Positions 35,681 to 62,687 of a stretch of 64,000 bases of DNA are shown piece after piece. A program made the position numbers and the translations under genes. The notes beneath the pieces are model-generated. The model was given only the letters and a program-made list of their open reading frames with translations, made no database searches and was not told the origin of the DNA. Numbering within the stretch: the stretch's first letter is position 1; every line of letters begins with the position of its first letter. Origin of the DNA: a bacterium (Candidatus Blackallbacteria) CG13_big_fil_rev_8_21_14_2_50_49_14 (GTDB lineage: Bacteria; Cyanobacteriota; Sericytochromatia; UBA7694); assembly GCA_002783405.1 (NCBI GenBank), contig PFGG01000052.1, positions 1 to 64,000 on the forward strand, in the 5' to 3' direction.

Positions 35681-36786
35681 CAGCTGCGCCTCGTTTTATA
35701 GGTGATCACGGGATCCATTTCTGCGATGATTTCGGCCAAACCCGCGTCTACCAAATCTTGAACCACCCGATCAATGGCTTTATAGGCTTGGGGGGCTTCT
35801 TCATAGAGCAATTCTCTGTTTTCACAGATCACCCAGGAACCCTTTTCCGTTCGCTGCAGATTCTCAGGTTTAAAGCGTTTTTCCAGACGGCCTTTGGTTT
35901 CTCCTCGGCTCCATTTGCGGCCTGCGCCATGGGCCAGAGACCAGGCACTTTTTTCACTGGGCAGCGCTTTGACGAGATAACTTGAACTTCCGCGTGAGCC
36001 AGGAATCACGACTGCGCCCTGATCTGCCGGACTGGCCCCTTTGCGATGCAGCCAGGATAGATTTGATGCGTGATTGAGCTTGCAGACACTGTTATGGCAG
36101 CGATCCAGCACCTGTTTTCCTTGGGCTCCCAAGAGGTTGAGAAAGCGTTTTTGAATAAGGGTGCGGTTGGCTTCACTCCAGCGCACGGCCAGGTCATGGG
36201 CCTGTAGATAAGCTTCGGCTTCTGGGCTAGGGGCAGCCAGGCCCTGTGCGCCAAAGCGTTCAGTATGTGCTCTGAGAATACTTTCTCCCAGCCCGCGAGA
36301 GCCGCTGTGCACCAATAAGAGCAGGCAATTTGGATCGATTTCAAGTTCTGCCAGGGCATCGGGATCGGCAATGCGTGTGATTTTTTGCAATTCAGCAAAA
36401 TGGTTGCCTCCCCCAATGGTTCCAAGTGAAGTGTCGTAGGGGGTGGGCTCTAAACCAAAATCTTGGAGCCAGGCTTGGGTATCCCCCTCCCAGGGTGTTT
36501 CAAGCCCTTCCAGTTTGCGTAAATTTTTTTCGGCTTTGAATTTTCGAACTTGAAGATCGGTTTGCCACAAACCCATGCCACAGCCGATATCATTGCCGAC
36601 CAAAAAGGGGTAAACTTGCCCCTCTGAAAGAAAGGCTGCTCCAATCGGGTGGCCTTTGCCGGGGTGCAAATCGGGCAAACCCACAGCCAAACGCATTCCC
36701 GGCAGTTTGGCCATGGTTTTAAGTTGTTCGATGGCTGCCCCTTCAATCCAGGAGTGGGGCGAAGCAATGATTTCAATCTCTGTCAT
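35680..36786 (-). CDS. rtcB2: RNA ligase RtcB, RtcB2 type
   Basis: RtcB joins RNA 2',3'-cyclic phosphate or 3'-phosphate to 5'-OH ends using GTP and manganese. Motifs visible in this 368-residue protein are GNDIGCGMGLW (metal cysteine), GGGNHFAELQ, LVHSGSRGLG and the guanylylated histidine region SLAHGAGRKWSRGE. The length is shorter than canonical RtcB (about 408) and fits the RtcB2 group that accompanies PrfH. It is predicted to repair 16S rRNA cut by toxins. An agagg ribosome site precedes the ATG. Confidence 0.92.
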   Translation of the reverse strand: MTEIEIIASPHSWIEGAAIEQLKTMAKLPGMRLAVGLPDLHPGKGHPIGAAFLSEGQVYPFLVGNDIGCGMGLWQTDLQVRKFKAEKNLRKLEGLETPWEGDTQAWLQDFGLEPTPYDTSLGTIGGGNHFAELQKITRIADPDALAELEIDPNCLLLLVHSGSRGLGESILRAHTERFGAQGLAAPSPEAEAYLQAHDLAVRWSEANRTLIQKRFLNLLGAQGKQVLDRCHNSVCKLNHASNLSWLHRKGASPADQGAVVIPGSRGSSSYLVKALPSEKSAWSLAHGAGRKWSRGETKGRLEKRFKPENLQRTEKGSWVICENRELLYEEAPQAYKAIDRVVQDLVDAGLAEIIAEMDPVITYKTRRS

Positions 36787-39594: not shown

Positions 39595-39628
39595 ACAAAC
39601 GGAAGTACTGCTTCCGTTTGTTTTTTTT
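39595..39628 (+). terminator. Rho-independent terminator
   Basis: The perfect 11-bp stem acaaacggaag/cttccgtttgt has a 5-base loop and is followed by seven or more T. It terminates the lipoprotein gene, and its T run ends about 9 bp before the proposed left end of the prophage. Confidence 0.92.
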
Positions 39629-39636
39629 ATCCGGGT

Positions 39637-39804
39637 TGTTAGCAATCAACTGATCTGAGACACAAACGTGATATGGCGTGATGAGCTGTGAAGTGATGTG
39701 ATGACGCGGGTCACACCCCCATCAAAAAGCCCCAAACCAATTTGAGACACTTTTGCGCCAGAAGCAAAAAACCGGCTTTTCGTGCAACTGATTTGAGACA
39801 CTTT
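39637..39804. mobile_element. Mu-like prophage left end (attL) with transposase-site repeats
   Basis: The proposed end begins TGTTAGCAATC at 39637. TG is the terminal dinucleotide of Mu-like elements. Three direct copies of a 20-bp motif follow: 39647-39666 (caactgatctgagacacaaa), 39734-39753 (aaaccaatttgagacacttt) and 39785-39804 (caactgatttgagacacttt). The shared core is T(C/T)TGAGACAC. The irregular 87- and 51-bp spacing recalls Mu L1-L2-L3, the sites bound by the transposase. The element extends past the window, so the right end and the 5-bp target duplication cannot be checked. Confidence 0.65.
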
Positions 39805-39847: not shown

Positions 39848-40375
39848 TTAAAATTTGCAATCCCGAACAATAATGTTCATAGAGAAATCATCGATGGTAC
39901 CTTCAACAGTGATGGGTTGGCCTTTATTGAGCTTTGTTAGTTTGTCAGCCTCTTTCTTTTTAAAAAGACACTGAAGGCTGGGTATTTCAATTTGCTCACC
40001 AGAGCCAAAAGTAAAGTACGGGTTGCCCAGAAAATCATCTCCTATGGAGGAGACAAATCCTTTGATGATAAAGCGTTTCCCCTTGTATTCTTGTTCAGCT
40101 TTTAGCTTGTTATTGTCGTAGACCTTAATGATTTGAGAGGCTGTAACCGTTGCCAGCTTGGCCTTCTCTTCAGCTGCTTTGGTCGCTTCCATTTTTTGTC
40201 TGTATTTCTCTTTTGCAGCTTCTTGTTCTTCGGATTTTTTTACTTCAATTTCGGCTTGTTGCTCAGCTTTTTTTCTTTCTTCTGGTGACTGCATAGCGAC
40301 ACCGATAATTGAAACGACCACCAACAGCAAAAACAACGCCCCAAATATGGTCAAACAGCCCTTTAAGAATTTCAT
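39848..40375 (-). CDS. Membrane-anchored OB-fold (tRNA_anti-like) protein
   Basis: This 175-residue protein has one N-terminal membrane segment (MKFLKGCLTIFGALFLLLVVVSIIGVAM), a charged Glu/Lys coiled coil at about 33-73, then an OB-fold domain of the tRNA_anti-like type (KGKRFIIKGFVSSIGDDFLGNPYFTFG... TVEGTIDDF). The ribosome site aaggag is strong. It lies between the phage end and the repressor, in leftward orientation, where Mu-like phages keep cargo and superinfection genes. It may be expressed from the lysogen. Function is unknown. Confidence 0.7.
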   Translation of the reverse strand: MKFLKGCLTIFGALFLLLVVVSIIGVAMQSPEERKKAEQQAEIEVKKSEEQEAAKEKYRQKMEATKAAEEKAKLATVTASQIIKVYDNNKLKAEQEYKGKRFIIKGFVSSIGDDFLGNPYFTFGSGEQIEIPSLQCLFKKKEADKLTKLNKGQPITVEGTIDDFSMNIIVRDCKF

Positions 40376-40748: not shown

Positions 40749-41168
40749 TCAGTCTTTTTGAAGTTCTTTAACCATCCTTTCCAGTTCATTCATTCTCACC
40801 GCATCTTGAACCTTGGAAAGCATTTCAGCGATTGCAACACCGCGCTTTTCTTCATCAATTTGAAGTAGTAAATCAAACAATCGTTTCATTTTTTCTTGAA
40901 CTTCTGACAGTTGCCCAGGTAAAACCTGAGAGTCTGTTGAACTGTCAGCCATTGCCATAGATCCTTCCCCGGTTAAAAGCCAATTGATATTTACACCAGT
41001 TTCTGCAATTGCAGCTAAGGCTTCTCCTCCAGGAGTGTTTTTGCCCTGTTCATATTTTTTAAAGACACCTATATGTACCCTTATTTGCTCTGCAAATTTT
41101 TCTTGGGTTAAACCTAAATGCTTCCTCCACTGCTTGAGGCGGGCACCAATTAGTTCCGACCTCATACT
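40749..41168 (-). CDS. Phage repressor, XRE-family HTH
   Basis: This 139-residue protein from the ATG at 41168 has an XRE helix-turn-helix in RLKQWRKHLGLTQEKFAEQIRVHIGVFKKYEQGKNTP, followed by a NWLLTGEGS segment and a C-terminal coiled part that suggests oligomerisation. It holds the place of the Mu c repressor, leftward next to the early promoter. The longer frame from 41186 uses a TTG inside an operator and is rejected. The four TCGGAAC sites beginning 2 bp upstream of the start are its likely operators. Confidence 0.82.
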   Translation of the reverse strand, partial: SMRSELIGARLKQWRKHLGLTQEKFAEQIRVHIGVFKKYEQGKNTPGGEALAAIAETGVNINWLLTGEGSMAMADSSTDSQVLPGQLSEVQEKMKRLFDLLLQIDEEKRGVAIAEMLSKVQDAVRMNELERMVKELQKD

Positions 41169-41170
41169 AA

Positions 41171-41286
41171 AAAGGTCGGAACCCAATTGCTTGAAACAAA
41201 GAACTGTTCCGACCTTCGTCTTTTCCTTTTGCAGTGCGGGTTACAAGGATTTCAGACATATAAAGGTCGGAACAAAAGGTCGGAAC
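41171..41286. promoter_or_regulatory. Phage operator array (AAAGGTCGGAAC sites)
   Basis: There are four copies of a 12-bp motif: direct at 41171-41182, inverted at 41206-41216, and two direct at 41262-41273 and 41275-41286 (13-bp period). They lie between the repressor gene and the rightward early promoter. The first is 2 bp from the repressor start, so autoregulation is likely. In Mu the same region also acts as a transpositional enhancer. Confidence 0.75.
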
Positions 41287-41403: not shown

Positions 41404-41616
41404 ATGGCAACCAAAAAAATAAAAACAATTGAGGAAGTCAGAGACGACTTTCGGAGGAAGGGTCTAACGATTAGATCCTGGGCCGCCAAGCATGGCGTCA
41501 GCGAGCGCACGACTTATGCAGTCATCTCTGGTGAAAACAAAGGCAATTATGGAAATGCCCACAAAATTGCTGTTTTGTTGGGTTTAAAAGATGGAGAAAT
41601 AAATGCAGCTTGTTGA
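41404..41616 (+). CDS. Ner-like DNA-binding protein
   Basis: This 70-residue helix-turn-helix protein (VRDDFRRKGLTIRSWAAKHGVSERTTYAVISGENKGNYGNAHKIAVLLGL) has the small size and position, between repressor and transposase, of Mu Ner, which damps early and repressor transcription. There is a ribosome site (gagagcaaa) upstream. It overlaps the transposase gene by 14 bp. Confidence 0.78.
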   Translation: MATKKIKTIEEVRDDFRRKGLTIRSWAAKHGVSERTTYAVISGENKGNYGNAHKIAVLLGLKDGEINAAC

Positions 41617-43537
41617 TAGCACCACAATCGGAACAGCTTTATCAATGACGTCCAGAGGTGTAAGAAAACGCGCTCAGCGTGAGTCTTGGGAATACTCTGA
41701 AAGACAATCAAACGGTGGGGCGCAGCAAGTTTATCATTTTGAGGCTTTGCCTTCAGAAGTCCAAGCAAAAGTCGCATTACACTTGCTTCAAACGGGTCAG
41801 ATTAAACCTGCTGAATCCCCAGATCAAACTCCCAAAACAGTCAAACGCAGTGCTTCAGGCTATGACCGTGACTCACTTTGGAGCTGGTACGACAGCCGCC
41901 CCCAAACCATCAAAGACGAAGGCACGCGCCGCGCTGGCTATTGTTTGAAAGTCCGGGCTTTGCTCGATTCGGGTCTCAAAGTCCGACCAGCTTTGGCCGA
42001 AGTGGCCCGCGTCGAAGGCGTCTCGCTGGCTTCGCTCAAACGCTGGTGGTATGGCGATACCCTGATCATTGGGGCCGCCAATGTAGACCGCACAGATTTC
42101 GCCGCCGCCTTGGCTCCCCGCTATGCTGGCTGCCAAGACTATGCGGAATTTAGCCAAGACGCTTGGGACTGGATCAAAGCTGACTGGCTTCGCCCAGAAC
42201 AGCCCTCGGCTGCGGCTGTCTACCGCCGAGCCCAAAGCATTGCAAAACAAAATGAGTGGGCCTTGCCCAGTTTGGCCACAGTCAAACGCCGCCTGGAGGC
42301 ATTGCCTTGGCAGGTGCGCGTGCTGGCCCGTGAAGGCGAAGAAGCCCTCAAACGGATGTTACCCCACGTCACTCGCAACAAAAGCAGTCTGCACGCCCTC
42401 GAAGTGGTCAACGCCGATGGCCATATCTTCGATCTGCGCGTGACCCTTCCCTCTGGTGAAGTGGGCCGCCCGGTTTTGGTGGCCTGGCAGGACATCTACA
42501 GTGGCAAAATTTTGGCGTGGCGCGTGGGCGAGACCCTGAATCAACACATTGTGCGCCTGGCTTTCGGGGATGTCGTTGAAAAATATGGTGTACCTGAGCA
42601 TTGCTTCCTCGACAATGGCCGCGAATTTGCCAATAAATGGCTCACAGGCGGGGCCAAAACCCGCTTCCGATTCACCATTCGAGAGGATGATCCCATCGGG
42701 ATTTTCACCCAATTGGGCATCAATGTTCACTGGACCACGCCCTACCATGGCCAATCCAAACCCATCGAACGTGCTTTTCTGGATTTATGTGAAGGAATAT
42801 CCCGGCACCCCGCTTGCAGTGGGGCATATACAGGCAACAGCCCTGTTACCAAGCCCAGCAATTACGGCTCACGGGCATTGACCTGGGATGAATTCTTGGC
42901 TGTGGTTCAAGAGGGCATCACCGAACACAATGCCCGCACGGGCCGCCGCTCACAAACCGCCAACGGGCGCTCTTTTGAACAGACCTTTGCAGAGTCTTAT
43001 GCCACCAGCATGATTCGCAAAGCCACCGCCGAACAGCGCCGTCTCTGGCTCTTGGCTGCCGAGGGCGTCACCGTCATTCAAAGCGGCCATGTTGCCATCT
43101 TGAAAAATCTGTACTGGGGTGAAGCCGTTGCTGGCTTGGCCGGGCGCAAAGTCGTGGTGCGCTTTGATTCCGACAATCTCTCTTTGCCGGTCCACGTCTA
43201 CGATTTGGCTGGTGAATACATTGGAGAAGCCTCTTGCACCCAGGCCAACTTTCTGGATGCCCAAGCGGCCAAAGACCATGCCCGCGCCAACCGCCAAAAA
43301 ATCAAAGCAGCAAAGGCGCAGCTTGACGCTGAACGCAAAATGGATGCCATCGAAGCCGCTCAGGCCCTGCCCAATGTGGTGCCCATGGAACGCCCTGCAT
43401 CCAGCGTGATTGTGCCCATGTTCGAGAAGGCGCAAAAGGTCGCCAATGGCCCGGATGTAGATGAAATGCCCTCAGATGAGCGCTACATCTTGGACATCTT
43501 GAGCCGGATGCCCCGCCGCACAGAAGAAGATTTTTAA
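41603..43537 (+). CDS. MuA-like DDE transposase
   Basis: This 644-residue transposase pairs and cuts the phage ends. An N-terminal winged-helix enhancer-binding segment (TTIGTALSMTSRGVRKRAQRESW) and a bipartite end-binding region are followed by the RNase H-fold core. The catalytic triad is D272 (VVNADGHIFD), D337 (CFLDNGREFAN) and E389 (SKPIERAF), almost the same residue positions and spacing as in MuA (D269, D336, E392). The C-terminal part, rich in K/A/E, is where MuB contact occurs in Mu. A ggaga ribosome site precedes the ATG inside the ner-like gene. Confidence 0.93.
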   Translation: MQLVDSTTIGTALSMTSRGVRKRAQRESWEYSERQSNGGAQQVYHFEALPSEVQAKVALHLLQTGQIKPAESPDQTPKTVKRSASGYDRDSLWSWYDSRPQTIKDEGTRRAGYCLKVRALLDSGLKVRPALAEVARVEGVSLASLKRWWYGDTLIIGAANVDRTDFAAALAPRYAGCQDYAEFSQDAWDWIKADWLRPEQPSAAAVYRRAQSIAKQNEWALPSLATVKRRLEALPWQVRVLAREGEEALKRMLPHVTRNKSSLHALEVVNADGHIFDLRVTLPSGEVGRPVLVAWQDIYSGKILAWRVGETLNQHIVRLAFGDVVEKYGVPEHCFLDNGREFANKWLTGGAKTRFRFTIREDDPIGIFTQLGINVHWTTPYHGQSKPIERAFLDLCEGISRHPACSGAYTGNSPVTKPSNYGSRALTWDEFLAVVQEGITEHNARTGRRSQTANGRSFEQTFAESYATSMIRKATAEQRRLWLLAAEGVTVIQSGHVAILKNLYWGEAVAGLAGRKVVVRFDSDNLSLPVHVYDLAGEYIGEASCTQANFLDAQAAKDHARANRQKIKAAKAQLDAERKMDAIEAAQALPNVVPMERPASSVIVPMFEKAQKVANGPDVDEMPSDERYILDILSRMPRRTEEDF

Positions 43538-44314: not shown

Positions 44315-45262
44315 ATGACAGAAAAAACGTCCGAAACCAAACCCAAAGCACCTGAATCCGCGACACTCAAACAAGTGAGAGCCGAGATAGACAAACGCGG
44401 AATCACCCAAGGCCAAGTGGCCCGTGAGATCGGGCTCAGCCCCACCACGCTGACCCAATTGCTCAACGGCACGTATGGAGCAGACCCTTCCAACCAGCTC
44501 GAAAAGATTGTGCGCTGGCTTTTGGCCCTGAAAGATCAGGACCATGTCAGAGGGCAATTGCCTTCTGTCCCAGACTTTGTGCTGACACCCACTTCATCGC
44601 GGGTCATGGCTGCGCTGGGTTACGCCAAGCTGGCTGGAGATATTGCCGTGATTTATGGTGGGGCGGGCCTGGGCAAAACCACCACTGTGCGGGAATTTCA
44701 GCGCAGCTATCCCAATGTTTGGATCGCAACCATGAGCCCAGCCAAAGCCAGTGTTGCCGCAGCATTTGAAGAGCTGTGTGTCGCTGTCGGTTTTCGCTCT
44801 CCCGCAATGGGTGCAGCCCGGCAACAGCGAGACATCGAGCGCCGCCTTGCAGGCACCGAGGGCCTGCTAATAATCGACGAAGCTCAACACTTAAGCATTC
44901 CAGCGCTCGACGCAATTCGGGCCATTCATGACGCCACAGGCGTGGGTATTGCTCTGGTGGGCAATGAGGCTGTCTATGCCCGCATGACAGGTGGCAATCG
45001 TGCGGCCTATCTGGATCGCTTGTTCAGCCGCATCGGTAAAAAGGTCAAGCTGCAACACCCCACATCCACAGATGTTGAAACCTTGGCTGGTGTCTTTAAC
45101 ATCACCGAAAAAGAGTCCATTGTTTTGCTCTGCCAGATTGGGGCTAAAGCGGGCGCACTTCGTTCAGTCGTTAAAATTCTGCGCCTGGCAACCATGAAAG
45201 CTGAAGGGAAAACCCCTGATGCAGTCCACATCAGAGAAGCCTTGAAGGAGCTGGGTGTATGA
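44315..45262 (+). CDS. MuB-like transposition ATPase
   Basis: This 315-residue AAA+ ATPase delivers target DNA to the transposase. The N-terminal helix-turn-helix (ITQGQVAREIGLSPTTLTQLLNGTYG) matches that of MuB. Walker A is GGAGLGKT (115-122), Walker B is LLIIDEAQH (184-192), and the sensor region is near ALVGNEAVY. The C-terminal ALRSVVKILRLATM helix fits the MuB C-domain. It overlaps the next gene by ATGA. Confidence 0.92.
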   Translation: MTEKTSETKPKAPESATLKQVRAEIDKRGITQGQVAREIGLSPTTLTQLLNGTYGADPSNQLEKIVRWLLALKDQDHVRGQLPSVPDFVLTPTSSRVMAALGYAKLAGDIAVIYGGAGLGKTTTVREFQRSYPNVWIATMSPAKASVAAAFEELCVAVGFRSPAMGAARQQRDIERRLAGTEGLLIIDEAQHLSIPALDAIRAIHDATGVGIALVGNEAVYARMTGGNRAAYLDRLFSRIGKKVKLQHPTSTDVETLAGVFNITEKESIVLLCQIGAKAGALRSVVKILRLATMKAEGKTPDAVHIREALKELGV

Positions 45263-46197: not shown

Positions 46198-46541
46198 GTA
46201 CTTTAAACAAAGCTATCTTTACCCCGACTGTCATTGTTGGCATTTACAAACATGATCAATTCGGCACCTATCATCTGCGGAATCTGCGCACAGGTCAGAT
46301 GCTCAATCGGGGTTATTCAACCATCGACGAAGCCCGGTTGGTTCAGGAGCTGCTTGAAAACAATCCTGATGGCCTTTCTGAAGAGGCGCGTCAGTCATTC
46401 TCTGCGGTTTATCAGCCGGAGTCAGAGAGGGGCCTGGATGCCTTGATTAAAGTCTTGGCCAGTGAACTTGCGGAATGGGAAAAACTCAGCAATAGCTTTA
46501 CCTTTAACCTGGAGGCTGCCAATGCAAGGCTCTCAAGGTAA
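46194..46541 (+). CDS. Hypothetical phage protein
   Basis: This 115-residue protein is mixed alpha/beta (VIVGIYKHDQFGTYHLRNLRTGQMLNRGYSTIDEA; LVQELLEN). It lies in the early region and overlaps the GemA-like gene by 20 bp. Not recognised. Confidence 0.55.
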   Translation: MSTLNKAIFTPTVIVGIYKHDQFGTYHLRNLRTGQMLNRGYSTIDEARLVQELLENNPDGLSEEARQSFSAVYQPESERGLDALIKVLASELAEWEKLSNSFTFNLEAANARLSR

Positions 46542-46980
46542 GGATTTCGCCCGCAAAAAAGACCTGGCTATCATCCACGCGGCCAAGAAGCGCATGGGCC
46601 TGGATGACGAATCTTACCGCGATCTGCTCGAAGGAGTGACCAGCAAAGGCGGTACCAAACAGGGGAAGCGCTCAGCCGCAGATCTGACAGCCTCTGAACG
46701 CCAAGCTGTCATTGCTGAAATGGAGCGCCTTGGTGGCCAAACAGCCCCCCGTCTCAAGGGCAAAAGAATCCAGCCCGCCGATGAACGGGCACCATTGCTA
46801 TCCAAGGTCTATGCCCTGCTTTACCATCTCGATCTCTCCATCGAATACGCCTTGGGTATTCTCAAACAGATGTTCAAAGACAAAGCCCCAGCCCGTTTGG
46901 AGTGGGCCAATTCCAGCCAGCTGCATAAACTGGTAGCGGCCTTGGAGTACCACAAGAAACGGAGCGCGGCCAAGCAATGA
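46522..46980 (+). CDS. GemA-like protein (Mu gp16, DUF1018 family)
   Basis: This 152-residue protein shows the DUF1018 signature: KKDLAIIHAAKKRMGLDDESYRDLL, then RSAADLTASERQAVIAEMERLGG and LHKLVAALE near the end. In Mu, gp16/GemA modulates host gene expression and DNA supercoiling. The start at 46522 is chosen for its ggagg ribosome site inside the upstream gene. It overlaps the next gene by ATGA. Confidence 0.82.
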   Translation: MQGSQGKDFARKKDLAIIHAAKKRMGLDDESYRDLLEGVTSKGGTKQGKRSAADLTASERQAVIAEMERLGGQTAPRLKGKRIQPADERAPLLSKVYALLYHLDLSIEYALGILKQMFKDKAPARLEWANSSQLHKLVAALEYHKKRSAAKQ

Positions 46981-47804: not shown

Positions 47805-48213
47805 AATGATTCCAAACTGGCTGCGTGAAGTGGTTGCAGAAGGCCTCATGAGCTTTGTCGTTTTGGGCCTACCCAATCAACCTCCTGCAGAAACCGTGGC
47901 TTTAACAGGTGAAATGTGGATCAAAGCACTTTGGAAGCATTCCCAATCCTGGGACGAAGAGCAAGACCGCATTCGGCTTGAGGAGGGGTTCTTGAATCTC
48001 TTGCCTATCTTGGAGCGCTGGCCTTTGCCCAAAGACCTGTTGGCGGCAATACCACTCAGACCCGAACAGGATATCTATTACCTTGAAGCACCGGCTATGA
48101 CCGAAAAACAGCGGAAATTCAACTTAGAGCAGATTCAGAAAATCAAAGCCCAACTGAAGGCTCTTGAAATCAAGATGAGTATGCCTAAAAAGGAGAAGAA
48201 CAAAAATGCGTGA
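47797..48213 (+). CDS. Hypothetical phage protein
   Basis: This 138-residue helical protein has a basic C-terminus (QRKFNLEQIQKIKAQLKALEIKM) and no recognised family. It is the last gene before the Mor-type activator and overlaps it by 8 bp. Confidence 0.55.
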   Translation: MAKMIPNWLREVVAEGLMSFVVLGLPNQPPAETVALTGEMWIKALWKHSQSWDEEQDRIRLEEGFLNLLPILERWPLPKDLLAAIPLRPEQDIYYLEAPAMTEKQRKFNLEQIQKIKAQLKALEIKMSMPKKEKNKNA

Positions 48214-48631
48214 TCAGCTTTCCCTGTTTCCACTTGAAGAGTATGTCAAAGAGCCTGTTTTTGAGGAACAGGCAGGAGGCATACTCGAACACAATCTGGG
48301 ACCAGAGAATGCCGCTGCGGTTGTAAAGGCTTTGGGTGGGCTGTCCATCAAAATCCCCAGTCACCCCAAAGGTACAGACTATGTTTTTTTCGAGCAAAAG
48401 CTGGGGTCAGAACTGGCCCAGCTTTTGATAGATAAATTTGCGGGTGAGGAAATTTACATCAGCCGCAATCACTCTGAAGAAGTGTGGACCCAACATCAGC
48501 AAGTGATTAAAACATTTCGGGACTTTGTTGCCAAGGGCAACTCGCGCCGCCGTGCTGTTCAGCAGACGGCCCTGCAGCTCCAGCGGAGTGGACGGCATAT
48601 CTACCGGATACTTGATGAATACAAGAGTTGA
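48206..48631 (+). CDS. mor: Mor-type middle transcription activator
   Basis: This 141-residue protein resembles Mu Mor/C activators. A dimerisation part (LGGLSIKIPSHPKGTDYVFFEQKLGSELAQLLIDKFAGEEIYISR) is followed by a C-terminal helix-turn-helix (NSRRRAVQQTALQLQRSGRHIYRILDEY). Mor activates middle and late phage promoters by binding dyad sites. The repeated motifs at 49250 and 57622 are candidate sites. Confidence 0.82.
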   Translation: MRDQLSLFPLEEYVKEPVFEEQAGGILEHNLGPENAAAVVKALGGLSIKIPSHPKGTDYVFFEQKLGSELAQLLIDKFAGEEIYISRNHSEEVWTQHQQVIKTFRDFVAKGNSRRRAVQQTALQLQRSGRHIYRILDEYKS

Positions 48632-50466: not shown

Positions 50467-50764
50467 CTTAGATATCCACCGTGCAGAACGGGAGTTTCTT
50501 CGCTGGATTATCATCACAGCCCTGTGGCACGCCCGCCCCTATGGCTGTCATGAACGGATCATTCTTCGTGCGGCTCAGGATATGCCGTTGCAAATCACCA
50601 CTGACCAATTGCGCCAAGAAATGGATTATGTCGAAGAAAGCGGCTTTTGCAAAATAGACAAAAGTGGGGAGCTTTGGCACGCTAAAATCACCCCCAAAGG
50701 CACAGATCTTGTAGATTACCGGGAAGATTGCCCCAAGGGCATTGCCCGCCCACCTAAGTGGTAA
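50456..50764 (+). CDS. Hypothetical phage protein, winged-helix-like
   Basis: This protein has 102 residues from the ATG at 50456, the longer frame being rejected. It is helical (IHRAEREFLRWIIITALWHARPYGCHERIILRAAQ), then has a YVEESGFCKID strand-turn and a beta hairpin (GELWHAKITPKG), like Mu gp25/gp26-region proteins. Probably DNA-binding. Function is unknown. Confidence 0.55.
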   Translation: MPDNLDIHRAEREFLRWIIITALWHARPYGCHERIILRAAQDMPLQITTDQLRQEMDYVEESGFCKIDKSGELWHAKITPKGTDLVDYREDCPKGIARPPKW

Positions 50765-50769
50765 ACCCC

Positions 50770-51309
50770 ATGTCAAAACCCTCCAAAGTTGAACTGATGC
50801 CAACCGAAGTGCGCGACTGGCTGGATAAAGCCCTGATTGACCGCTCGTTTTCTGGCTACAAGGAACTCGAAGCCCTGATGAAAGAAAGAGGGTTTGACAT
50901 CAGTCACGCCGCCATCCATCGCCACGGCCAAAAACTTGAGCGTCGATTGCAGGCTATCAAAACCAGCACCGAAGCGGCCAAGCTGATTGCCGAGGCAGCT
51001 CCCGATCAGGCTGACCACCGCAGCGCCGCCACCACGGCCCTGATTCAAACATCTCTCTTTGACGCCCTGGTGGATGTGCAAGAGGCAGAAGAAACCCTCG
51101 ATCCAGTCAAGAAGGTCAAGCTTTTGGCTGGGGCTGCAGCCGCCTTTTCCATGCTCGCAAAATCCAGCCTGGCACAAAAGCAGTGGGAGGAAAAAGTCAG
51201 GATAAAGCTGGATGCCCTGGAAAAAGCTGCTCAACAGGAAACGGGCGAGAAAAAGACCGTCACGCTTGAAATCCTGAATATGATTCGCAAAGAAGTCTAC
51301 GGTGTTTGA
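50770..51309 (+). CDS. Terminase small subunit-like (Mu gp27, DUF3486)
   Basis: This 179-residue helical protein begins with a helix-turn-helix-like part (LPTEVRDWLDKALIDRSFSGYKELEALMKERGFDISHAAIHRHGQKLERRL), as in DUF3486/Gp27 proteins of Mu-like phages, the presumed small terminase subunit. It lies before the methyltransferase and large terminase genes. Confidence 0.8.
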   Translation: MSKPSKVELMPTEVRDWLDKALIDRSFSGYKELEALMKERGFDISHAAIHRHGQKLERRLQAIKTSTEAAKLIAEAAPDQADHRSAATTALIQTSLFDALVDVQEAEETLDPVKKVKLLAGAAAAFSMLAKSSLAQKQWEEKVRIKLDALEKAAQQETGEKKTVTLEILNMIRKEVYGV

Positions 51310-51320
51310 AGGAGTACCCC

Positions 51321-52106
51321 ATGTCTGATCTCTGCCCCATTTGTCCCTATCTCAGGAGCGCGTTTACTCTCGAAACGGGCCTTGGCTGGAGTGCCTATCA
51401 CGGCAACTCTATCGAAGTGCTGAAGTCCCTGCCAGAAGGCTCTGTCGATGCCTTGATCTCTGACCCGCCTTACGGAACTGGTGCCAATACTCTGATGGGC
51501 CGTCTGAAGCCTTCTTCGGAAAAATACCGCAGCACAGGGGCCGCCCCTCTGCCAGATATTGACGGGGACTCGCTCATGCCTGAAGCCTGGCAGGATATGA
51601 TGGGTCAGATATTGCGCAGATCCTACCGGGTTCTCAAACCAGGAGCAACAGTGCTGCTGTTTTGCGATTGGCGTAGCCTGCCCAGTCTAATCAACGTGGT
51701 CAGCTATTCAGGTTTTGCCCTGCAGGCGGTCCCAGTCTGGGACAAAGGCCGGGGCTCACGCCCGCGCAAGAATGGTTTTCGCTCTCAATCCGAGCTGATT
51801 CTCTGGGCCAAAAAGCCAGGTGTTTTAGATGGCCCTGAACCCCCGGTCTATCTGGATGGGGTGCTGAAGCATTCCACTTTGAGCAATCACAAGCAGCACT
51901 TGACCCAAAAGCCGCTCCCATTGATGAAAGAACTGGTGCGCGTTGTGCCCAAGAAGGGGCTGGTTTTAGACCCCTTTCAAGGCAGTGGCACCACTGGCGT
52001 TGCTGCACTGGAGCAGGGGCTGACGTATATCGGGATTGAATCAGTGCCCGAATACCACAAGATTGCCTGTGAAAGACTGGCTGCATCCCAAGCCCGCGCC
52101 GCTTGA
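51321..52106 (+). CDS. DNA methyltransferase (N4/N6, beta class)
   Basis: This protein has 261 residues from the ATG at 51321, following gaagga. It shows the catalytic motif DPPYG (near residue 50) before the SAM-binding FQGSGTTG near the C-terminus. This is the order of beta-class N4-cytosine or N6-adenine methyltransferases. Between them is a variable target-recognition region. No partner endonuclease is nearby, so it is probably an orphan phage enzyme protecting or regulating phage DNA. Sitting between the two terminase subunit genes, it may also influence packaging. Confidence 0.88.
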   Translation: MSDLCPICPYLRSAFTLETGLGWSAYHGNSIEVLKSLPEGSVDALISDPPYGTGANTLMGRLKPSSEKYRSTGAAPLPDIDGDSLMPEAWQDMMGQILRRSYRVLKPGATVLLFCDWRSLPSLINVVSYSGFALQAVPVWDKGRGSRPRKNGFRSQSELILWAKKPGVLDGPEPPVYLDGVLKHSTLSNHKQHLTQKPLPLMKELVRVVPKKGLVLDPFQGSGTTGVAALEQGLTYIGIESVPEYHKIACERLAASQARAA

Positions 52107-52114
52107 GGTAAATT

Positions 52115-53464
52115 TTGTCTATCCTTCTTCCCTACCAAAAAACCTATCTGGCAGACAAATCGCGATTCAAAGCGGGGATGTTTGCCCGTCAAACAGGGAA
52201 GACATTCACTACAACCCTCGAAGCCACCGACGATTGCATGGAGGCTGAAGCCACAGGCCGCATCTCTCGCTGGACCATTCTTTCGGGCTCAAAGGCCCAG
52301 GCCAAAGAGGCCATCGATACGGGTGTGAAATTGCATTTAAACGCTTATCGAACGGTGTTTGAATACCTCGAACAGCCCTTTGATGAAGACATCGACGAAC
52401 TGGCCTATGAAGTTCGCTTCAAAGGGGGTTCCCGTATTCGTGCTGTGGCCGCCAACCCCGCCACAGCCCGTGGCAAATCCGACAATATTATCCTAGATGA
52501 ATTTGGCTTTCACAAAGACAATCGCGCCATTTGGCGGGCCTTATTCCCCATTATTTCCAGACGTGATCTGAAGCTGCGTGTCATCTCAACCCCCAATGGT
52601 ATGGGTGACAAATTCTTTGAAGTCATGAACTCGGAAAAGATGGGCCGAGTTTTCTCCCGGCATGTCATCGACATTTATCAGGCGGTGGCTCAGGGCCTGG
52701 ACCGCGACATTGAAGAGCTGCGCGATGGGATGAATGACCCCGATGGCTGGGCCCAGGAGTTTGAATGCAGATTCATTGACGCAGCCACAGCTTGGTTAAC
52801 CTTTGAGCTGATTGATGCGTGTGAAGATCCCTTGGCGGGCATGCCCGAAGAGTATCAAGGGGGGCTGTGCTTTGTCGGGATGGACTTTGGCCGCCGCCGT
52901 GACTTGACCACCATTTATGTGCTCGAAGACGTCGAGGGCGTCTTGTGGCTGCGCGAATGGGTCGAACTGGAGCGTAAACCCTTTCGGGAGCAATTGGCCG
53001 AGCTGGATCGCATCTTTAAAACCTATCGGGTGGTGCGGGCTGCACTTGACCAGACGGGTATGGGAGAAATGCCTGTCGAAGAAGCCAAAGCGGCACACGG
53101 CTCCAGCCGGATTCTGGGGGTTTTGTTTCAAGGCCCGGCCAAAATGGAAATGGCCACAGCCCTGAAGCAGCGAATGGAAGACCGGCAATTGAAGCTGCCA
53201 AAACGCTCTGAGCTGCGAGATGACTTGCACTCTGTTTCTAAGCGGGTTGGCCCGACTGGCATCCCTCAGATTTCTGCTCCGCGCATCAATGGATCACATG
53301 CTGACCGTTTCTGGGCATTGGGTTTGGCCTGTATGGCGGCCTCCAGTGCCGAAATGCCAGACTTTAACAAAATTCAAACCACAGGGGAATTCACCCAGCA
53401 GGAAAGTGGCCTGTGGCTGCCAACTTGGGGAACAGTAGAAGGAGCACGTTATGACGGATACTGA
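52115..53464 (+). CDS. Terminase large subunit (Mu gp28-like)
   Basis: This 449-residue packaging ATPase-nuclease starts at a TTG with gagg upstream. The N-terminal ATPase has a Walker A-like FARQTGKT (23-30) and Walker B IILDEFG; the C-terminal RNase H-like nuclease has VGMDFGRRRDLTTIY and ALDQTGMG. This is the Mu gp28 layout. It packages phage DNA into the prohead. Confidence 0.93.
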   Translation: MSILLPYQKTYLADKSRFKAGMFARQTGKTFTTTLEATDDCMEAEATGRISRWTILSGSKAQAKEAIDTGVKLHLNAYRTVFEYLEQPFDEDIDELAYEVRFKGGSRIRAVAANPATARGKSDNIILDEFGFHKDNRAIWRALFPIISRRDLKLRVISTPNGMGDKFFEVMNSEKMGRVFSRHVIDIYQAVAQGLDRDIEELRDGMNDPDGWAQEFECRFIDAATAWLTFELIDACEDPLAGMPEEYQGGLCFVGMDFGRRRDLTTIYVLEDVEGVLWLREWVELERKPFREQLAELDRIFKTYRVVRAALDQTGMGEMPVEEAKAAHGSSRILGVLFQGPAKMEMATALKQRMEDRQLKLPKRSELRDDLHSVSKRVGPTGIPQISAPRINGSHADRFWALGLACMAASSAEMPDFNKIQTTGEFTQQESGLWLPTWGTVEGARYDGY

Positions 53465-54950
53465 GGCCAAAACCACACGGCCCGAACTCAACGAAATTGC
53501 CAGTACCAACGATGGCCGGGATATTACCAGAGGATTTGTCGAAGCCCTGCATTACCTGAGCCCCACCGACAAAGTTTTGCAACAGGCGGGAGGCCTGGAA
53601 TCGTATGAGGAGCTGCTCAAAGACGATCAGGTTTCTGCTACCTTTGCCCAGCGCAGAAATGCAGTGCTTGCCCGCCCATGGACAGTGACACCAGGGGGCA
53701 CCAAGCGTCAGGACAAATTGGCGGCTAAACTGGTCCAAGAAACCTTGAAGGCCCTGCCTTGGGACACGATCACCGACCATATGCTTTACGCCAGGTTGTA
53801 CGGCTATGCTGTGGCCGAAGTCATGTGGGTTGTTAATAGCCTGGTCAAAATCTCAGACATTCGCGTGCGTGACCGCCGCCGCTTTGTTTTCGCCCCCGAC
53901 AACTCCCTTAAAATGCTCACCCACAGAAACCCCAATGGCGAGGTTTTGCCTGATCGCAAGTTCTGGGTTTCGAGTGTTGGCGCTAGCCACAACGATGAAC
54001 CTTATGGCCTGGGCCTGGGCCATGCGCTCTATTGGCCCGTCTTTTTTAAACGCAACGGGGCCCGCTTTTGGGCCAAGTTTATGGAAAAATTTGCATCGCC
54101 CACCGCCATGGGAACCTTTCCCGCTGGGGCCTCAGATTCAGAGCGTCAGAAGCTCTTGGGGGCGGTTCGGGCTGTGGCAATGGATTCAGGGATTATCATT
54201 CCCGAAGGTACTCAAATTCAACTCCTCGAAGCCACACGGGGCGGGAATGCCTCTTATGGAGAATGGCTCCATTATTGGGATAGCGCAATTGCCAAGGTCA
54301 TCCTCGGCCAAACCATGACCACCGAAGACGGGAGCAGCTATTCCCAAGCCACGGTGCATTATGCGGTTCGCCAAGATTTGGTAAAAGCTGATGCCGACTT
54401 GGTTTCTCAAACTGCTAACAGCTCTTGGGTGCGCTGGCTGGTTGACTACAATTTTGCTGGGGCTGCTTATCCTCAGGTCTGGCGAGATATGGAAGACGCC
54501 GAAGATCTGGAGCAGCGCTCAACCCGAGACAAAACCCTCTTTGACATGGGATTCAAACTCACCCCCGAAGCCGTGACCCGTATCTATGGCGACGATTATG
54601 AGCCCATCGAACCCCCGCAGCCAGAAACGAAGCCCGATCCCATTCCCGCCAAACAAGAACAGACCGCCCCGGCCCTAGCCGAAGGCGACGAAATTGACTT
54701 GACCCCCAGCCCAGTTGAGCCCCTGGCCAATGCACTGGACCAACAAAGTGCGCCTGCCTGGCGTAAAATTCTGGACCACATTCAGCAGCTGGTAAACAGC
54801 GCCCCCGATCTCCCGACTCTGCGTGATGCTCTTTTAAATGCCTATGCAGAGCTGCCCGGCGATGAACTTGGGGATGTGATGGCCTTGGCCATGCTGACCG
54901 CTGAACTGGCGGGACGGTACGATGTTGAACAGGAATCCGCCGATGACTGA
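53451..54950 (+). CDS. Portal protein (Mu gp29, DUF935)
   Basis: This 499-residue protein matches DUF935/Gp29: YEELLKDDQVSATFAQRRNAVLARPW, RFVFAPDN, YGLGLGHALYWPVFFKR and LGQTMTTEDGSSYSQATVH. The C-terminal stretch is Pro/Gln-rich. It forms the ring at the prohead vertex through which DNA passes. It overlaps the terminase gene by 14 bp and the MuF gene by 8 bp. Confidence 0.93.
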   Translation: MTDTEAKTTRPELNEIASTNDGRDITRGFVEALHYLSPTDKVLQQAGGLESYEELLKDDQVSATFAQRRNAVLARPWTVTPGGTKRQDKLAAKLVQETLKALPWDTITDHMLYARLYGYAVAEVMWVVNSLVKISDIRVRDRRRFVFAPDNSLKMLTHRNPNGEVLPDRKFWVSSVGASHNDEPYGLGLGHALYWPVFFKRNGARFWAKFMEKFASPTAMGTFPAGASDSERQKLLGAVRAVAMDSGIIIPEGTQIQLLEATRGGNASYGEWLHYWDSAIAKVILGQTMTTEDGSSYSQATVHYAVRQDLVKADADLVSQTANSSWVRWLVDYNFAGAAYPQVWRDMEDAEDLEQRSTRDKTLFDMGFKLTPEAVTRIYGDDYEPIEPPQPETKPDPIPAKQEQTAPALAEGDEIDLTPSPVEPLANALDQQSAPAWRKILDHIQQLVNSAPDLPTLRDALLNAYAELPGDELGDVMALAMLTAELAGRYDVEQESADD

Positions 54951-56139
54951 GCCCGCGATCTCAGGCGTCTTTCGGGAGCCCTTTCAAGAACAGGTGGCCT
55001 TCTTTCGGCAGAAACTTGGCAATCTGGTTCCCACTGAGCGCTGGACAGACATGCAAAAAGAAGCGCATGACAAGGGCTTTATGGTGGCAGGCGCTGCCAA
55101 AGCGGATTTGCTGTCTGACCTTGCCGCTGCCGTGGACAAAGCGATCAGCCAGGGCACAAGTTTGGGCGCTTTTCGCAAAGACTTCAAAAGCATTACTGCC
55201 CGCCATGGCTGGGATTACCGTGGGGAATTCAACTGGCGCACAAAGGTCATTTACCAAACCAATATGGCCACCAGTTATGCTGCCGGACGCTTGGCCCAGC
55301 TCCGTGATGCCGAATTCACTCACTGGGAATACATTCACAGCAATGCCGTGGCCCACCCGCGTAAGCAGCACTTGGGTTGGAATGGTCTGGTACTCTCTGC
55401 AGATGATCCGTTTTGGAATGCGCACTACCCACCCAATGGCTGGGGCTGTCAGTGCCGGGTAAGAGGCCGGAACAATCCAGATAAAGTGGGGCAGGCCCCT
55501 GATGACGAGATTGACCCCCGCACGGGTGAGCCAGTGGGCATAGACAAGGGTTGGGGTTATATGCCCGGCAATACTGTCAGCGCCACAGTGACGTCCTTGG
55601 CCGCTCGCACCGTGCAATGGAAATATGAGCTGGCAAAGGCTTATCTGGAGAATTTACCGGAAGGGCTCAAAGACCAATTTTCCCGCTCTATGCGTGATTT
55701 GCCATCAACAAGAGACGCGGCAAGGCAGTTTGCTGGGCGCGTATTGGATGATCGCAATCATACCGAATACCAGTCTATGGGCCTGCTGACATCTGAAGAT
55801 GTCTCTAAAATTCAGGAATTGAAAGGCCTTGATGTGGCTGGGTATGATTTTGCGCTTGACCCGTCTTCGGTAAGACATATCCAGAAAAAACATGGAGACT
55901 TAAAATCTGAAGCCTTGCGTGGTCAAAGAGCAGTCACAAAGGAAGACTATGAAAAGATTCCTGAATTACTCAACTCACCAGATGAAATTACAGACTCAGG
56001 CTTATCTCATACTACAAATAATCCATTGATCGAGTACTCAAAGGTAATTGGTCAAGATAAGTATTCGCTGGTGCTTGAATATCGTAAGAAACGAAAGATG
56101 TTGGTTTCGACAACATTCTACATTCAAGGGGGGAATTAA
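54943..56139 (+). CDS. MuF head protein with C-terminal PBECR-like nuclease domain
   Basis: This protein has 398 residues from the ATG at 54943. Residues 1-270 are the Mu gpF/SPP1 gp7 minor head protein, ending with CQCRVRGRNN. The remaining 120 residues (from about NHTEYQSMGLLT) have a fold-like pattern RHIQKKHG, VTKEDYEKIPELLNSPDEI and LEYRKKRKMLVSTTFY, typical of the phage Barnase-EndoU-ColicinE5/D-RelE-type RNase domain fused to MuF. The histidines H312 and K313 region is a candidate catalytic patch. Such a protein could be injected with the phage DNA and act as a toxin. An inhibitor gene would be expected nearby. Confidence 0.85.
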   Translation: MTEPAISGVFREPFQEQVAFFRQKLGNLVPTERWTDMQKEAHDKGFMVAGAAKADLLSDLAAAVDKAISQGTSLGAFRKDFKSITARHGWDYRGEFNWRTKVIYQTNMATSYAAGRLAQLRDAEFTHWEYIHSNAVAHPRKQHLGWNGLVLSADDPFWNAHYPPNGWGCQCRVRGRNNPDKVGQAPDDEIDPRTGEPVGIDKGWGYMPGNTVSATVTSLAARTVQWKYELAKAYLENLPEGLKDQFSRSMRDLPSTRDAARQFAGRVLDDRNHTEYQSMGLLTSEDVSKIQELKGLDVAGYDFALDPSSVRHIQKKHGDLKSEALRGQRAVTKEDYEKIPELLNSPDEITDSGLSHTTNNPLIEYSKVIGQDKYSLVLEYRKKRKMLVSTTFYIQGGN

Positions 56140-59033: not shown

Positions 59034-59969
59034 ATGTCCCAGATGAATCCTTCACAGGCCCGTGTCATCGATCCCGTTTTGACAGAAGTGGCCCGTGGTT
59101 ACAAGCACCCTGAGCGGGTGGGTATGAAGTTGTTTCCCGAAGTGCCTGTGGGCCAGCGCGGTGGGAAAATTATTCAGTTTGGAAAAGATTCTTTCAAGCT
59201 GTACCAGACAGGCAGAGCCCCCGGTGGCAATGTGGCTGTCGTGGATTATGGCTATTCAGGGTCCAGTTACTCGCTCGAACAGCACGCCATTTCTGGTAAG
59301 GTGCCCATCGAGCTGCTCGAAGAAGCCAAAGCCGTTCCAGGTATTGACCTGAGCAAAGGCGCTGTCCAACAGGCCCAGGATATTATCTCCTTGCGCCTGG
59401 AGTACCAGCAGGCCACCATTGCCAGAACAGCGGGCACCTACGCATCAGGTAACAAGGTGACTCTTTCTGGTTCCTCTCAATGGAGCCATGCCGATTCTAA
59501 CCCCTCTGCAGACATTGAAACAGCCCGTGAGGCAATTCGCGCCAAAACTGGGTTTTATCCCAATATCACACTGCTTTCACCCAAGGCTTTTTCAGCATTA
59601 AAAGTCCACACCCGTATTCTCGACCGGATGAAATACACAGGTCGGGATTCGCTCACAACAGACATGCTGGCCAAACTCTGGGACATTGACGAAGTTGTGG
59701 TTGGCAAAGGTGTTACGGCATCGGATGCAGGCGTGTTCTCAGATATCTGGGGCAAAGATGTCATCTTGGCCTATGTCGCCACCGGAAACCTGGCATCCAT
59801 GGGCACCCCCAGCTATGGCTATACCTACCGCTTGCGCAATTACCCGATTGCCGAGCAAGGTTATTACGCAGCTGGCAGCCGTTCATGGTTCTATCCCGTG
59901 ATTGATGAAGTTTCGCCCGTGATTGCAGGGGCTGAAGCGGGCTATCTGATCACCAACGCGGTGGCCTAA
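59034..59969 (+). CDS. Major capsid protein
   Basis: This 311-residue protein has a pattern seen in Mu gpT-like/HK97-fold major capsid proteins of this phage group (VIDPVLTEVARGYKHPERVGMKLFPEVPVG, then an extended loop region, SLEQHAISGKVPIE and LLSPKAFSALKVHTRILDRMKYTG). It is the main shell subunit, preceded by a good ribosome site (aaggag). Confidence 0.88.
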   Translation: MSQMNPSQARVIDPVLTEVARGYKHPERVGMKLFPEVPVGQRGGKIIQFGKDSFKLYQTGRAPGGNVAVVDYGYSGSSYSLEQHAISGKVPIELLEEAKAVPGIDLSKGAVQQAQDIISLRLEYQQATIARTAGTYASGNKVTLSGSSQWSHADSNPSADIETAREAIRAKTGFYPNITLLSPKAFSALKVHTRILDRMKYTGRDSLTTDMLAKLWDIDEVVVGKGVTASDAGVFSDIWGKDVILAYVATGNLASMGTPSYGYTYRLRNYPIAEQGYYAAGSRSWFYPVIDEVSPVIAGAEAGYLITNAVA

Positions 59970-61035: not shown

Positions 61036-61257
61036 ATGGCAAGCTACACCTATTCCGGCCCGCCCTCTGGAACCACTTTAAACGATGGGCGCGAAGTGCT
61101 GTTTTATGATGGCAAGACCTACGACCTGCCTGCTGAAAACGAGTACGTTTTATCTTTGGTTGCTCAAAAGCGCCTGGCACCCACCAAAGCCACCCCCAAC
61201 CAAGTCAAAGCCCCCTCCAACCAAGTCAAAGCCCCCAAAGAGAAGGAGAAAGTCTGA
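61036..61257 (+). CDS. Mu gp38-like small protein
   Basis: This 73-residue protein (SGPPSGTTLNDGREVLFYDGKTYDLPAENEYVLSLVAQKRLAPT) ends with a Lys/Pro repeat (NQVKAP twice), suggesting flexible tail extension. It corresponds in position to Mu gp38, upstream of the sheath gene. Confidence 0.6.
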   Translation: MASYTYSGPPSGTTLNDGREVLFYDGKTYDLPAENEYVLSLVAQKRLAPTKATPNQVKAPSNQVKAPKEKEKV

Positions 61258-62687
61258 TGGCTGTAAATTACCTGCATGGTGTAGAAACCATCGAAAACGA
61301 CAAAGGCCCCCGCCCGATTCGCACAGTCAAAACAGCTGTGGTGGGCCTGATTGGCACTGCCCCCATGGGTGCAATCAACGAGCCGATTGTCATCAACAGC
61401 GACCGCGATGTGGCCCAATTTGGCCCCATGACCCCCGGCTTTACCATCCCCCAGGCCTTGGACGCCATCTTTGATCAAGGGGCGGGCACGGTGATTGTGA
61501 TCAACGTCTTGGACCCCGATACCCACAAAACAGCAGTGGCAGACGAAGCCGTTACCTTCAGTACCACCACAAACAAAGTCAAACTGGACAATCCCCATGT
61601 GGCTAATCTGGTGCTGAAAAACAATGCCGGTGATGTGACCTATGTGCTCAACACCGATTACAAAGTGAATCTCGTCACTGGCGAGCTTGAGCGCGTGGTC
61701 GGCGGGGCCATTGCCAGCGGTGGGGCAGCCAAAGCCAGCTATGATTATGCCGATCCCACTGAAGTGGTTGCAGCGGATATTATCGGGGAAGTGACTGTGG
61801 GCGGCCTGCGCACGGGAATCAAGGCCCTCGAAGACACATATAACCTCTTTGGATTCTTTGCCAAGATCCTGATTTCACCTGTCTTCTGCACCCAAAACAG
61901 CGTTGCCGCAGAGATGATCAGCATGGCTGTCAAACTGCGTGCTTTTGCCTTGATTGATGCACCGATTGGCACCACCCCGGCCCAGGCCATCACCGGACGC
62001 GGCCCCAGTGGTTCGATCAACTTCAATACCAGCTCTGAGCGGGCAATTCTCTGCTATCCCCATCTCAAGGTCTACGACCCTGTACTGGATGAAAACCGCC
62101 TGGAGCCCTTTAGCCAGCGCTTGGCTGGGGTGATGTGTCGCCGCGATGTGGACAACGGTTATTGGTGGTCGCCCTCCAATATGGAAATCTTGGGTATTGT
62201 CGGAGCCGAACGCTCCATTTCTGCACGGGTCAACGATCCCAATACCGAAGCCAACCAGCTCAACGAAGCGGGCATCATGACCATTTTCAACAGCTTTGGC
62301 ACGGGTCTGCGCACCTGGGGCAACCGCAGCGCCGCTTTCCCCAGCAATACCAGCCCCAAGAATTTCATCTCTGTGCGCCGCACTGCTGATGTGCTGCATG
62401 AATCGGTTGAATTTGCCATGCTGCAATTCATCGACTATCCCATTGATGATGTCTTAATTGACGCCATTTTGCAGAGTGCCAATGCCTTTGTTCGCACCCT
62501 GATTGGCCGTGGGGCTATTATCGACGGCCTGGTTACATACGACCCGGCCAAGAACCCGCCCACGGAAATTGCTGCCGGGCACCTCACTTTTGACGTGACA
62601 TTTGTCCCACCGACCCCGGCTGAGCGTATCACGTTTGAATCTTTTATCGACATCAACCTGCTGGCTGGCCTCGGGGCCGCCGCTTAA
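61257..62687 (+). CDS. Tail sheath protein
   Basis: This 476-residue contractile-tail sheath has the family opening VETIENDKGPRPIRTVKTAVVGLIGTAPMGAINEPIVI and the C-terminal FFRTWGNRSAAFP-like core (GTGLRTWGNRSAAFPS; FISVRRTADVLHESVEFAMLQF; RTLIGRGAIIDG). It shares P2 FI/Mu gpL ancestry. It shows the phage is a myovirus. Confidence 0.93.
   Translation: MAVNYLHGVETIENDKGPRPIRTVKTAVVGLIGTAPMGAINEPIVINSDRDVAQFGPMTPGFTIPQALDAIFDQGAGTVIVINVLDPDTHKTAVADEAVTFSTTTNKVKLDNPHVANLVLKNNAGDVTYVLNTDYKVNLVTGELERVVGGAIASGGAAKASYDYADPTEVVAADIIGEVTVGGLRTGIKALEDTYNLFGFFAKILISPVFCTQNSVAAEMISMAVKLRAFALIDAPIGTTPAQAITGRGPSGSINFNTSSERAILCYPHLKVYDPVLDENRLEPFSQRLAGVMCRRDVDNGYWWSPSNMEILGIVGAERSISARVNDPNTEANQLNEAGIMTIFNSFGTGLRTWGNRSAAFPSNTSPKNFISVRRTADVLHESVEFAMLQFIDYPIDDVLIDAILQSANAFVRTLIGRGAIIDGLVTYDPAKNPPTEIAAGHLTFDVTFVPPTPAERITFESFIDINLLAGLGAAA

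Follow-up and report, generated by a model that had tools for sequence, protein, structure and literature searches.

The locus at positions 39637-39804 raises the question of what three short direct repeats behind the terminator of a lipoprotein gene represent. The original prediction took them for the transposase sites of a Mu-like phage, and our analysis agrees: with a probability of about 0.96 the repeats are L1, L2 and L3, to which the transposase would bind, and mark the left end (attL) of a Mu-like prophage that is complete at 37,033 bp. The window, i.e. the whole stretch of 64,000 nucleotides analysed, equals C52:1-64000 of a contig, C52, that runs to 83,545, and window and contig coordinates are identical. 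The left end consists of the following features.

39637-39643, forward strand: left terminus TGTTAGC, read from the sequence (the right terminus, read inwards, is TGTAAGC)
39647-39663, forward strand: L1, putative MuA-binding site, matrix rank 3 of the contig
39734-39750, forward strand: L2, a weaker site, matrix rank 8
39785-39801, forward strand: L3, matrix rank 1 of the contig

The three sites share the exact 10-mer TYTGAGACAC, that is T(C/T)TGAGACAC, in direct orientation on the forward strand at 39654-39663 (TCTGAGACAC), 39741-39750 and 39792-39801 (both TTTGAGACAC). The number of copies and their spacing, 87 bp and then 51 bp, are as originally predicted; the repeat unit, given there as 20 bp, is 17 bp long (CAACTGATYTGAGACAC). 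L3 is 94% and L2 76% identical to L1, and L2 matches L3 at 17 of 19 bp. As also foreseen, the first repeat starts 10 bp inside the TG terminus, and a terminator lies some 9 bp ahead of it: the T-run of a strong hairpin stops at 39628, 8-9 bp before TGTTAGC. The 64-kb window holds no exact match to the 10-mer other than these three, and 12 matches with up to one mismatch (6.1 expected; 12 was reached in one of 100 shuffles). Genome-wide there are 17 exact matches versus 16 for the reversed control, i.e. no enrichment, and the 10-mer alone was dropped as evidence; it is informative mainly through its clustering. An inverted pair of TTTGAGACAC at C19:9231-9257, considered as a further phage end, was rejected, since by eye it looks like a hairpin behind a host gene.

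If the repeats mark one end of a Mu-like element, a matching end should lie beyond the window, and the search for it proposed in the original prediction could be carried out on the remainder of the contig. The element is delimited as follows.

C52:39637-76669, forward strand: Mu-like prophage, 37,033 bp, of which 39637-64000 lies in the window; right terminus read in C52:60001-80000 (L009)
39632-39636 and C52:76670-76674 (the latter beyond the window), no strand: left and right copies of the 5-bp target duplication CGGGT, from the reading of the flanks

The termini are TGT...ACA, with the left at 39637 and the right at C52:76669, where its last letters are ...GCGCTTACA, after which comes CGGGTGGG. 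In the inward direction this end reads TGTAAGCGCTCAGGTAATTTGGGACAG, and another site lies 22 bp deeper. It carries inverted copies of the motif, namely R1 and R2 on the opposite strand with a spacing of 22 bp, together with a reversed R3. The outcome named beforehand as refuting the original prediction, a right end without the motif or with another terminus, thus did not occur. R1 deviates from the shared core (TAATTTGGGACAG) and has the lowest score among the five strong sites. The CGGGT flanks match solely in the exact register (nine registers were tried). Leptospira prophages with B3/Tn552-type transposases are described as leaving 6-bp repeats in the relevant part of PMC8705779, and by that account the 5-bp scar found here fits the Mu type. 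The G+C content of the element is 51.1%, compared to 46.5% in the left and 44.9% in the right flank. R2 overlaps with the reversed R3 at C52:76604-76640 (L009 16604-16640), where the two form an inverted repeat some 35 bp long; the Thermomonas haemolytica prophage (L072) and L078 have, by eye, a similar one. A stable hairpin at this palindrome is unsupported (z -1.27, with 18 of 200 shuffles equally good).

The correspondence between the two ends was assessed in two ways. In a motif-free comparison of the left 180 bp with the right 80 bp, 16 of 17 positions match, whereas 2000 random pairs of internal segments all fell short of this value; in the Thermomonas prophages the same comparison gave 16, 16 and 15. 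In addition, a matrix built from 21 distinct of 25 sites of relatives, none of them from contig C52, was used to scan the 83.5-kb contig on both strands. The five top-scoring matches (21-bp, given by start) are L3 at 39782, R2 at 76620 (reverse strand), L1 at 39644, R3 at 76604 (forward strand) and R1 at 76642 (reverse strand), and L2 (start 39731) comes eighth, below two chance matches. Column permutation gave 300 control matrices, and for none of these did the element ends contain more than one of the five best matches. The matrix test is partly circular, the relatives' sites having been found by scanning with the window motif, whereas the motif-free test is not.

Relatives of the transposase were drawn from genomes and viral contigs. 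The same site code, TTTGAGACA, stands upstream of MuA in the prophages of T. haemolytica and Thermomonas sp. S9 (L015-L017, L022) and in four IMG/VR sequences (L023, L025, L026, L027); in L031 there is a single site, and G002, a genome of the same family as the host, carries an altered version on its contig C58. Where MuA is 51-63% identical, the relatives have sites of this kind, and the distance between these and their termini is the same as here. The MuA clade with TTTGAGACA ends comprises ten rows, including L031 and G002, with 100/98 support (midpoint root). At MuA loci outside it for which upstream DNA was available (L018-L021, L036, L038, G003) the L1 and L3 pair of this code is absent; L024 (660 bp), L029, L030, L032 and L033 were left out because of short upstream DNA. 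The host 16S rRNA gene is 77.4-77.9% identical to those of the two Thermomonas genomes, and therefore the clade spans very distant hosts.

The Thermomonas prophages, with MuA 51-53% identical to that studied here (L015-L017), share the end code, the 22-bp R1-R2 distance and 5-bp duplications, but in three of them L2 lies on the opposite strand. The IMG/VR sequences are closer in MuA (60-63%) and share the code, but are fragments whose right end was not found in the sequence searched; L2 is at +85 in L025, L026 and L027, and L023 has no L2 match. The G002 prophage (MuA 51%) also has a Mu-like left end with L2 and L3 51 bp apart, but differs in having TTTAAGACAC in L2 and L3 and the terminus TGA; its right end was not found with the one pattern searched. 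In the nine left ends compared, TGT stands 14 bp ahead of the 12-bp core, the exception being S9-C, which has one extra T at a contig end (L077) and no L3 match there, L3 being visible in L079. All five right ends in this comparison have R1 and R2 22 bp apart, and three further IMG/VR right ends agree; L078 represents a right end to which no left end was matched. Exact 5-bp duplications flank all four prophages for which both flanks could be read (CGGGT, GCCGT, CCGGG and ATCAC), that of S9-C matching also one register off. The left terminus of S9-C was matched with the extra T allowed. S9-B (L079) was not counted separately, since it represents the insertion already given by S9-C (same flank, at the start and end of the contig).

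The distance from L1 to L3 is 137 bp in T. haemolytica, S9-A, S9-C (L079), L023, L025, L026 and L027, 138 bp here and 148 bp in G002. The three Thermomonas prophages have L2 reversed; it is direct in this element and in L025, L026, L027 and G002. We tentatively suggest, as a reading that may well prove wrong, that the clade keeps the L1-L3 distance near-fixed (with about one helical turn more in G002), that L2 is a structural site whose orientation is irrelevant, and that the clade amounts to a natural experiment on the joint change of transposase and end code (TTTGAGACA to TTTAAGACA in G002).

The genes behind the left end are those of a Mu-like phage.

39848-40375, reverse strand: 175-aa protein in the interval between left end and repressor; Sie-like superinfection-exclusion family phrog_8545 (E 7.6e-16) and PF12869 (tRNA_anti-like, E 2.5e-21)
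40749-41186, reverse strand: HTH repressor-like gene; PF12844 (E 1.5e-11), phrog_8, phrog_4
41153-41286, two copies on the reverse and three on the forward strand: five repeats of GGTCGGAAC around the repressor gene start, candidate repressor operators
41404-41616, forward strand: small HTH protein at the position of Mu ner; phrog_925 (HTH DNA-binding protein, E 1.1e-25)
41603-43537, forward strand: MuA-type transposase, 644 aa; PF02914 (E 4.2e-52), PF09039, PF09299 and PF02316, all above Pfam cut-offs
44315-45262, forward strand: MuB-type ATPase, 315 aa, downstream of A; PF09077 (E 1.5e-18), AAA_22, phrog_296 (E 1.1e-75)
46462-46980, forward strand: GemA; PF06252 (E 3.3e-18)
48206-48631, forward strand: Mor-like late activator; PF08765 (E 1.3e-7), phrog_836
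50758-51309, forward strand: terminase small subunit; phrog_426 (E 1.1e-37)
51306-52106, forward strand: DNA methylase between the terminase genes; PF01555 (E 5.4e-31)
52115-53464, forward strand: terminase large subunit; phrog_5909 (E 1.1e-51)
53451-54950, forward strand: portal protein; phrog_113 (E 6.4e-126)
54922-56139, forward strand: minor head protein; phrog_220 (E 5.5e-79)
59034-59969, forward strand: major head protein; phrog_1005 (E 6.3e-98)
61257-62687, forward strand: tail sheath (contractile tail); phrog_23 (E 3.9e-123)

A baseplate protein was also matched in the element (PHROGs). The small HTH protein has no Pfam match, and its position suggests the role of Ner. The catalytic DDE residues of MuA are D272, D337 and E389, aligned to D269, D336 and E392 of Mu, the residues named in PMC3362531 for Mu MuA. 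The portal is most similar to that of Chromohalobacter phage YPCBV-1 (45.0%), followed by B3, and for the tail sheath Escherichia phage PhiKM (57.8%) ranks first among the phages of the collection. The element may thus be mosaic.

The proposal that the repeats are transposase sites is supported by the right-end sites, by the adjoining MuA and MuB genes and by the sites of relatives. The MuA-like transposase would bind the TTTGAGACA sites at both ends via its DNA-binding domains, pair the ends and nick beside TG/CA; the ends would then be joined to target DNA picked with the MuB ATPase, the joining would leave the 5-bp duplication, and replicative transposition would produce copies. Whether the prophage could still grow in this way bears on the most serious alternative, which is compatible with the transposase-site reading, namely that the ends are real and the prophage is a dead remnant. 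A near-identical IMG/VR record (one mismatch in 29,105 bp) begins in the same left flank and gives no sign of activity, and the deviating core of R1 points in the same direction. Against this, intact reading frames that match their families strongly were seen for those core genes that were tested, and both termini and the duplication are exact. We regard a remnant as unlikely, if well worth weighing; the prophage may be active and grow replicatively.

Less probable still is the notion that the terminator hairpin guided the insertion. This element did insert right behind the lipoprotein terminator, as proposed, and the hotspots of Pseudomonas phage Ab30 are placed 55-61 bp from a palindrome-like consensus in the part of PMC5977238 that deals with them. 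This is, however, a single case, and a general preference for such sites finds no echo in the T. haemolytica relative, which sits in a GNAT gene: three open frames span its joined flanks, one of them cut by the phage within the GNAT domain, and PF00583 is matched (E 7.8e-9) as far as position 84 of 116 by the part of the domain left in one flank. The open frames around S9-A and S9-C point to no particular gene context. Insertion behind the terminator is therefore likely incidental, and guidance by the hairpin improbable. The left flank is native: its lipoprotein has a 75% identical orthologue in the same-genus genome G001. The right flank contains serpin genes (PF00079). From C52:76800 to the contig end (L009, L010) three serpin genes or gene parts lie in tandem directly behind the prophage, and more serpin matches occur elsewhere in the host genome (G000) and in G001. 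No empty site was found in G001, where a different gene follows the lipoprotein orthologue and the serpin matches are on other contigs.

It is very improbable that the repeats serve a repressor or another regulator as operators, apart from transposition. The left end does lie near the repressor gene, and in other viral contigs TTTGAGACA is found in pairs with a 23-bp period that no Mu-like terminus precedes. On the other hand, here the sites recur in inverted form 37 kb away at the right terminus, where their distance from TGT equals that in relatives, and the likelier operators have a different sequence, GGTCGGAAC, beside the repressor. Judging by their placement, the GGTCGGAAC copies at 41153-41286 are likely repressor operators, and the region perhaps serves as an enhancer as well. 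In Mu-like phages a transpositional enhancer is bound by domain I-alpha of MuA, and an N-terminal Mu domain is found in the MuA described here (PF02316, E 6.4e-6).

Paired TTTGAGACA sites were also sought across IMG/VR. The right-type scan gave at least 120 stretches. Among the matches listed, the 13-bp gap occurs at nine places; at four of these (L158, which is T. haemolytica, L160, L199 and L208) TGTA is seen by eye 17 nt ahead of the site, and at the other five it is not; the 14-bp gap is commoner among the matches listed (27 places), by eye with no such terminus. Long open frames near 13 loci with gaps of 12-14 bp were read by eye. The left-type scan gave 65 stretches, with the 128-bp gap in three already known records only; gaps of 129, 130 and 141 bp are commoner (9, 9 and 11), and hence spacing alone proves nothing. 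Repeats like TTTGAGACACGG with a 23-bp period, perhaps operators, are found in L106, L112, L133, L139, L144, L153, L154, L182 and others; the open frames near those in L106, L112, L144 and L154 were read by eye. Finally, chance direct repeats beside a TG dinucleotide, a reading favoured by the lack of genome-wide enrichment of the 10-mer, are already refuted by the right end, as well as contradicted by the clustering, the motif-free end comparison and the relatives.

The transposase sites can be compared with those of phage Mu (Muvirus mu, AF083977), which has three MuA sites per end, inverted ends and a 5-bp stagger in strand transfer, as outlined in the pertinent part of PMC3362531. Scanning Mu's own sequence with the MuA consensus placed L1 at 6 (+), L3 at 151 (+), R3 at 36641 (+), R2 at 36669 (-) and R1 at 36691 (-), and L2 was not among the six best left-end matches. 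The likeness to Mu's L1-L3 layout proposed for our repeats thus holds for L1 and L3, while L2 is clearly weaker. The two phages are also alike in length (36,717 bp in Mu versus 37,033 bp), TG...CA ends, direct L1 and L3, a weak L2 by scan, an R1-R2 distance of 22 bp, a reversed R3, the order repressor-ner-A-B and the DDE residues; GemA and Mor (PF08765) here belong to Mu-named families. They differ in that MuA is 36-37% identical, the end code is TTTGAGACA and not that of Mu, L1 and L3 are 138 bp apart compared to 145 in Mu, and R3 overlaps R2. With such a MuA, and with PhiKM as the best tail sheath match, the element lacks the close overall relatedness to Mu expected of a Muvirus. Ranked by MuA, the top named phage is Microcystis phage Mwe-Yong1 (MZ436628), which has MuB, GemA and a middle operon regulator; however, its MuA is 40.6% identical, and the 11.9 kb read contain one isolated near-match to the site core.

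Mu-like phages transpose replicatively and package host DNA at their ends. The features expected of such a phage are present: MuA with end-binding domains, MuB, TG...CA termini with a 5-bp duplication, three sites per end (L2 weak) in inverted ends, and head and tail genes within about 37 kb. We thus regard it as a complete and ordinary prophage of a known, Mu-like kind, new as an individual and with its own recognition sequence. Literature searches on Blackallbacteria prophages and on Thermomonas 'Mu-like prophage' returned no report, one on Sericytochromatia prophages listed five papers, and none of the literature matches listed for the site motif was relevant by title. The finding provides a fully delimited Mu-like element, with both ends, six sites and the duplication, in a lineage far from Thermomonas. 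Together with its relatives with readable ends, it allows transposase and end sequence to be compared outside Mu, and a mini-element tool for such hosts could be built on these ends. Its interest is modest and lies in an end code found across distant hosts, with a steady L1-L3 spacing and an L2 that is reversed in some members.
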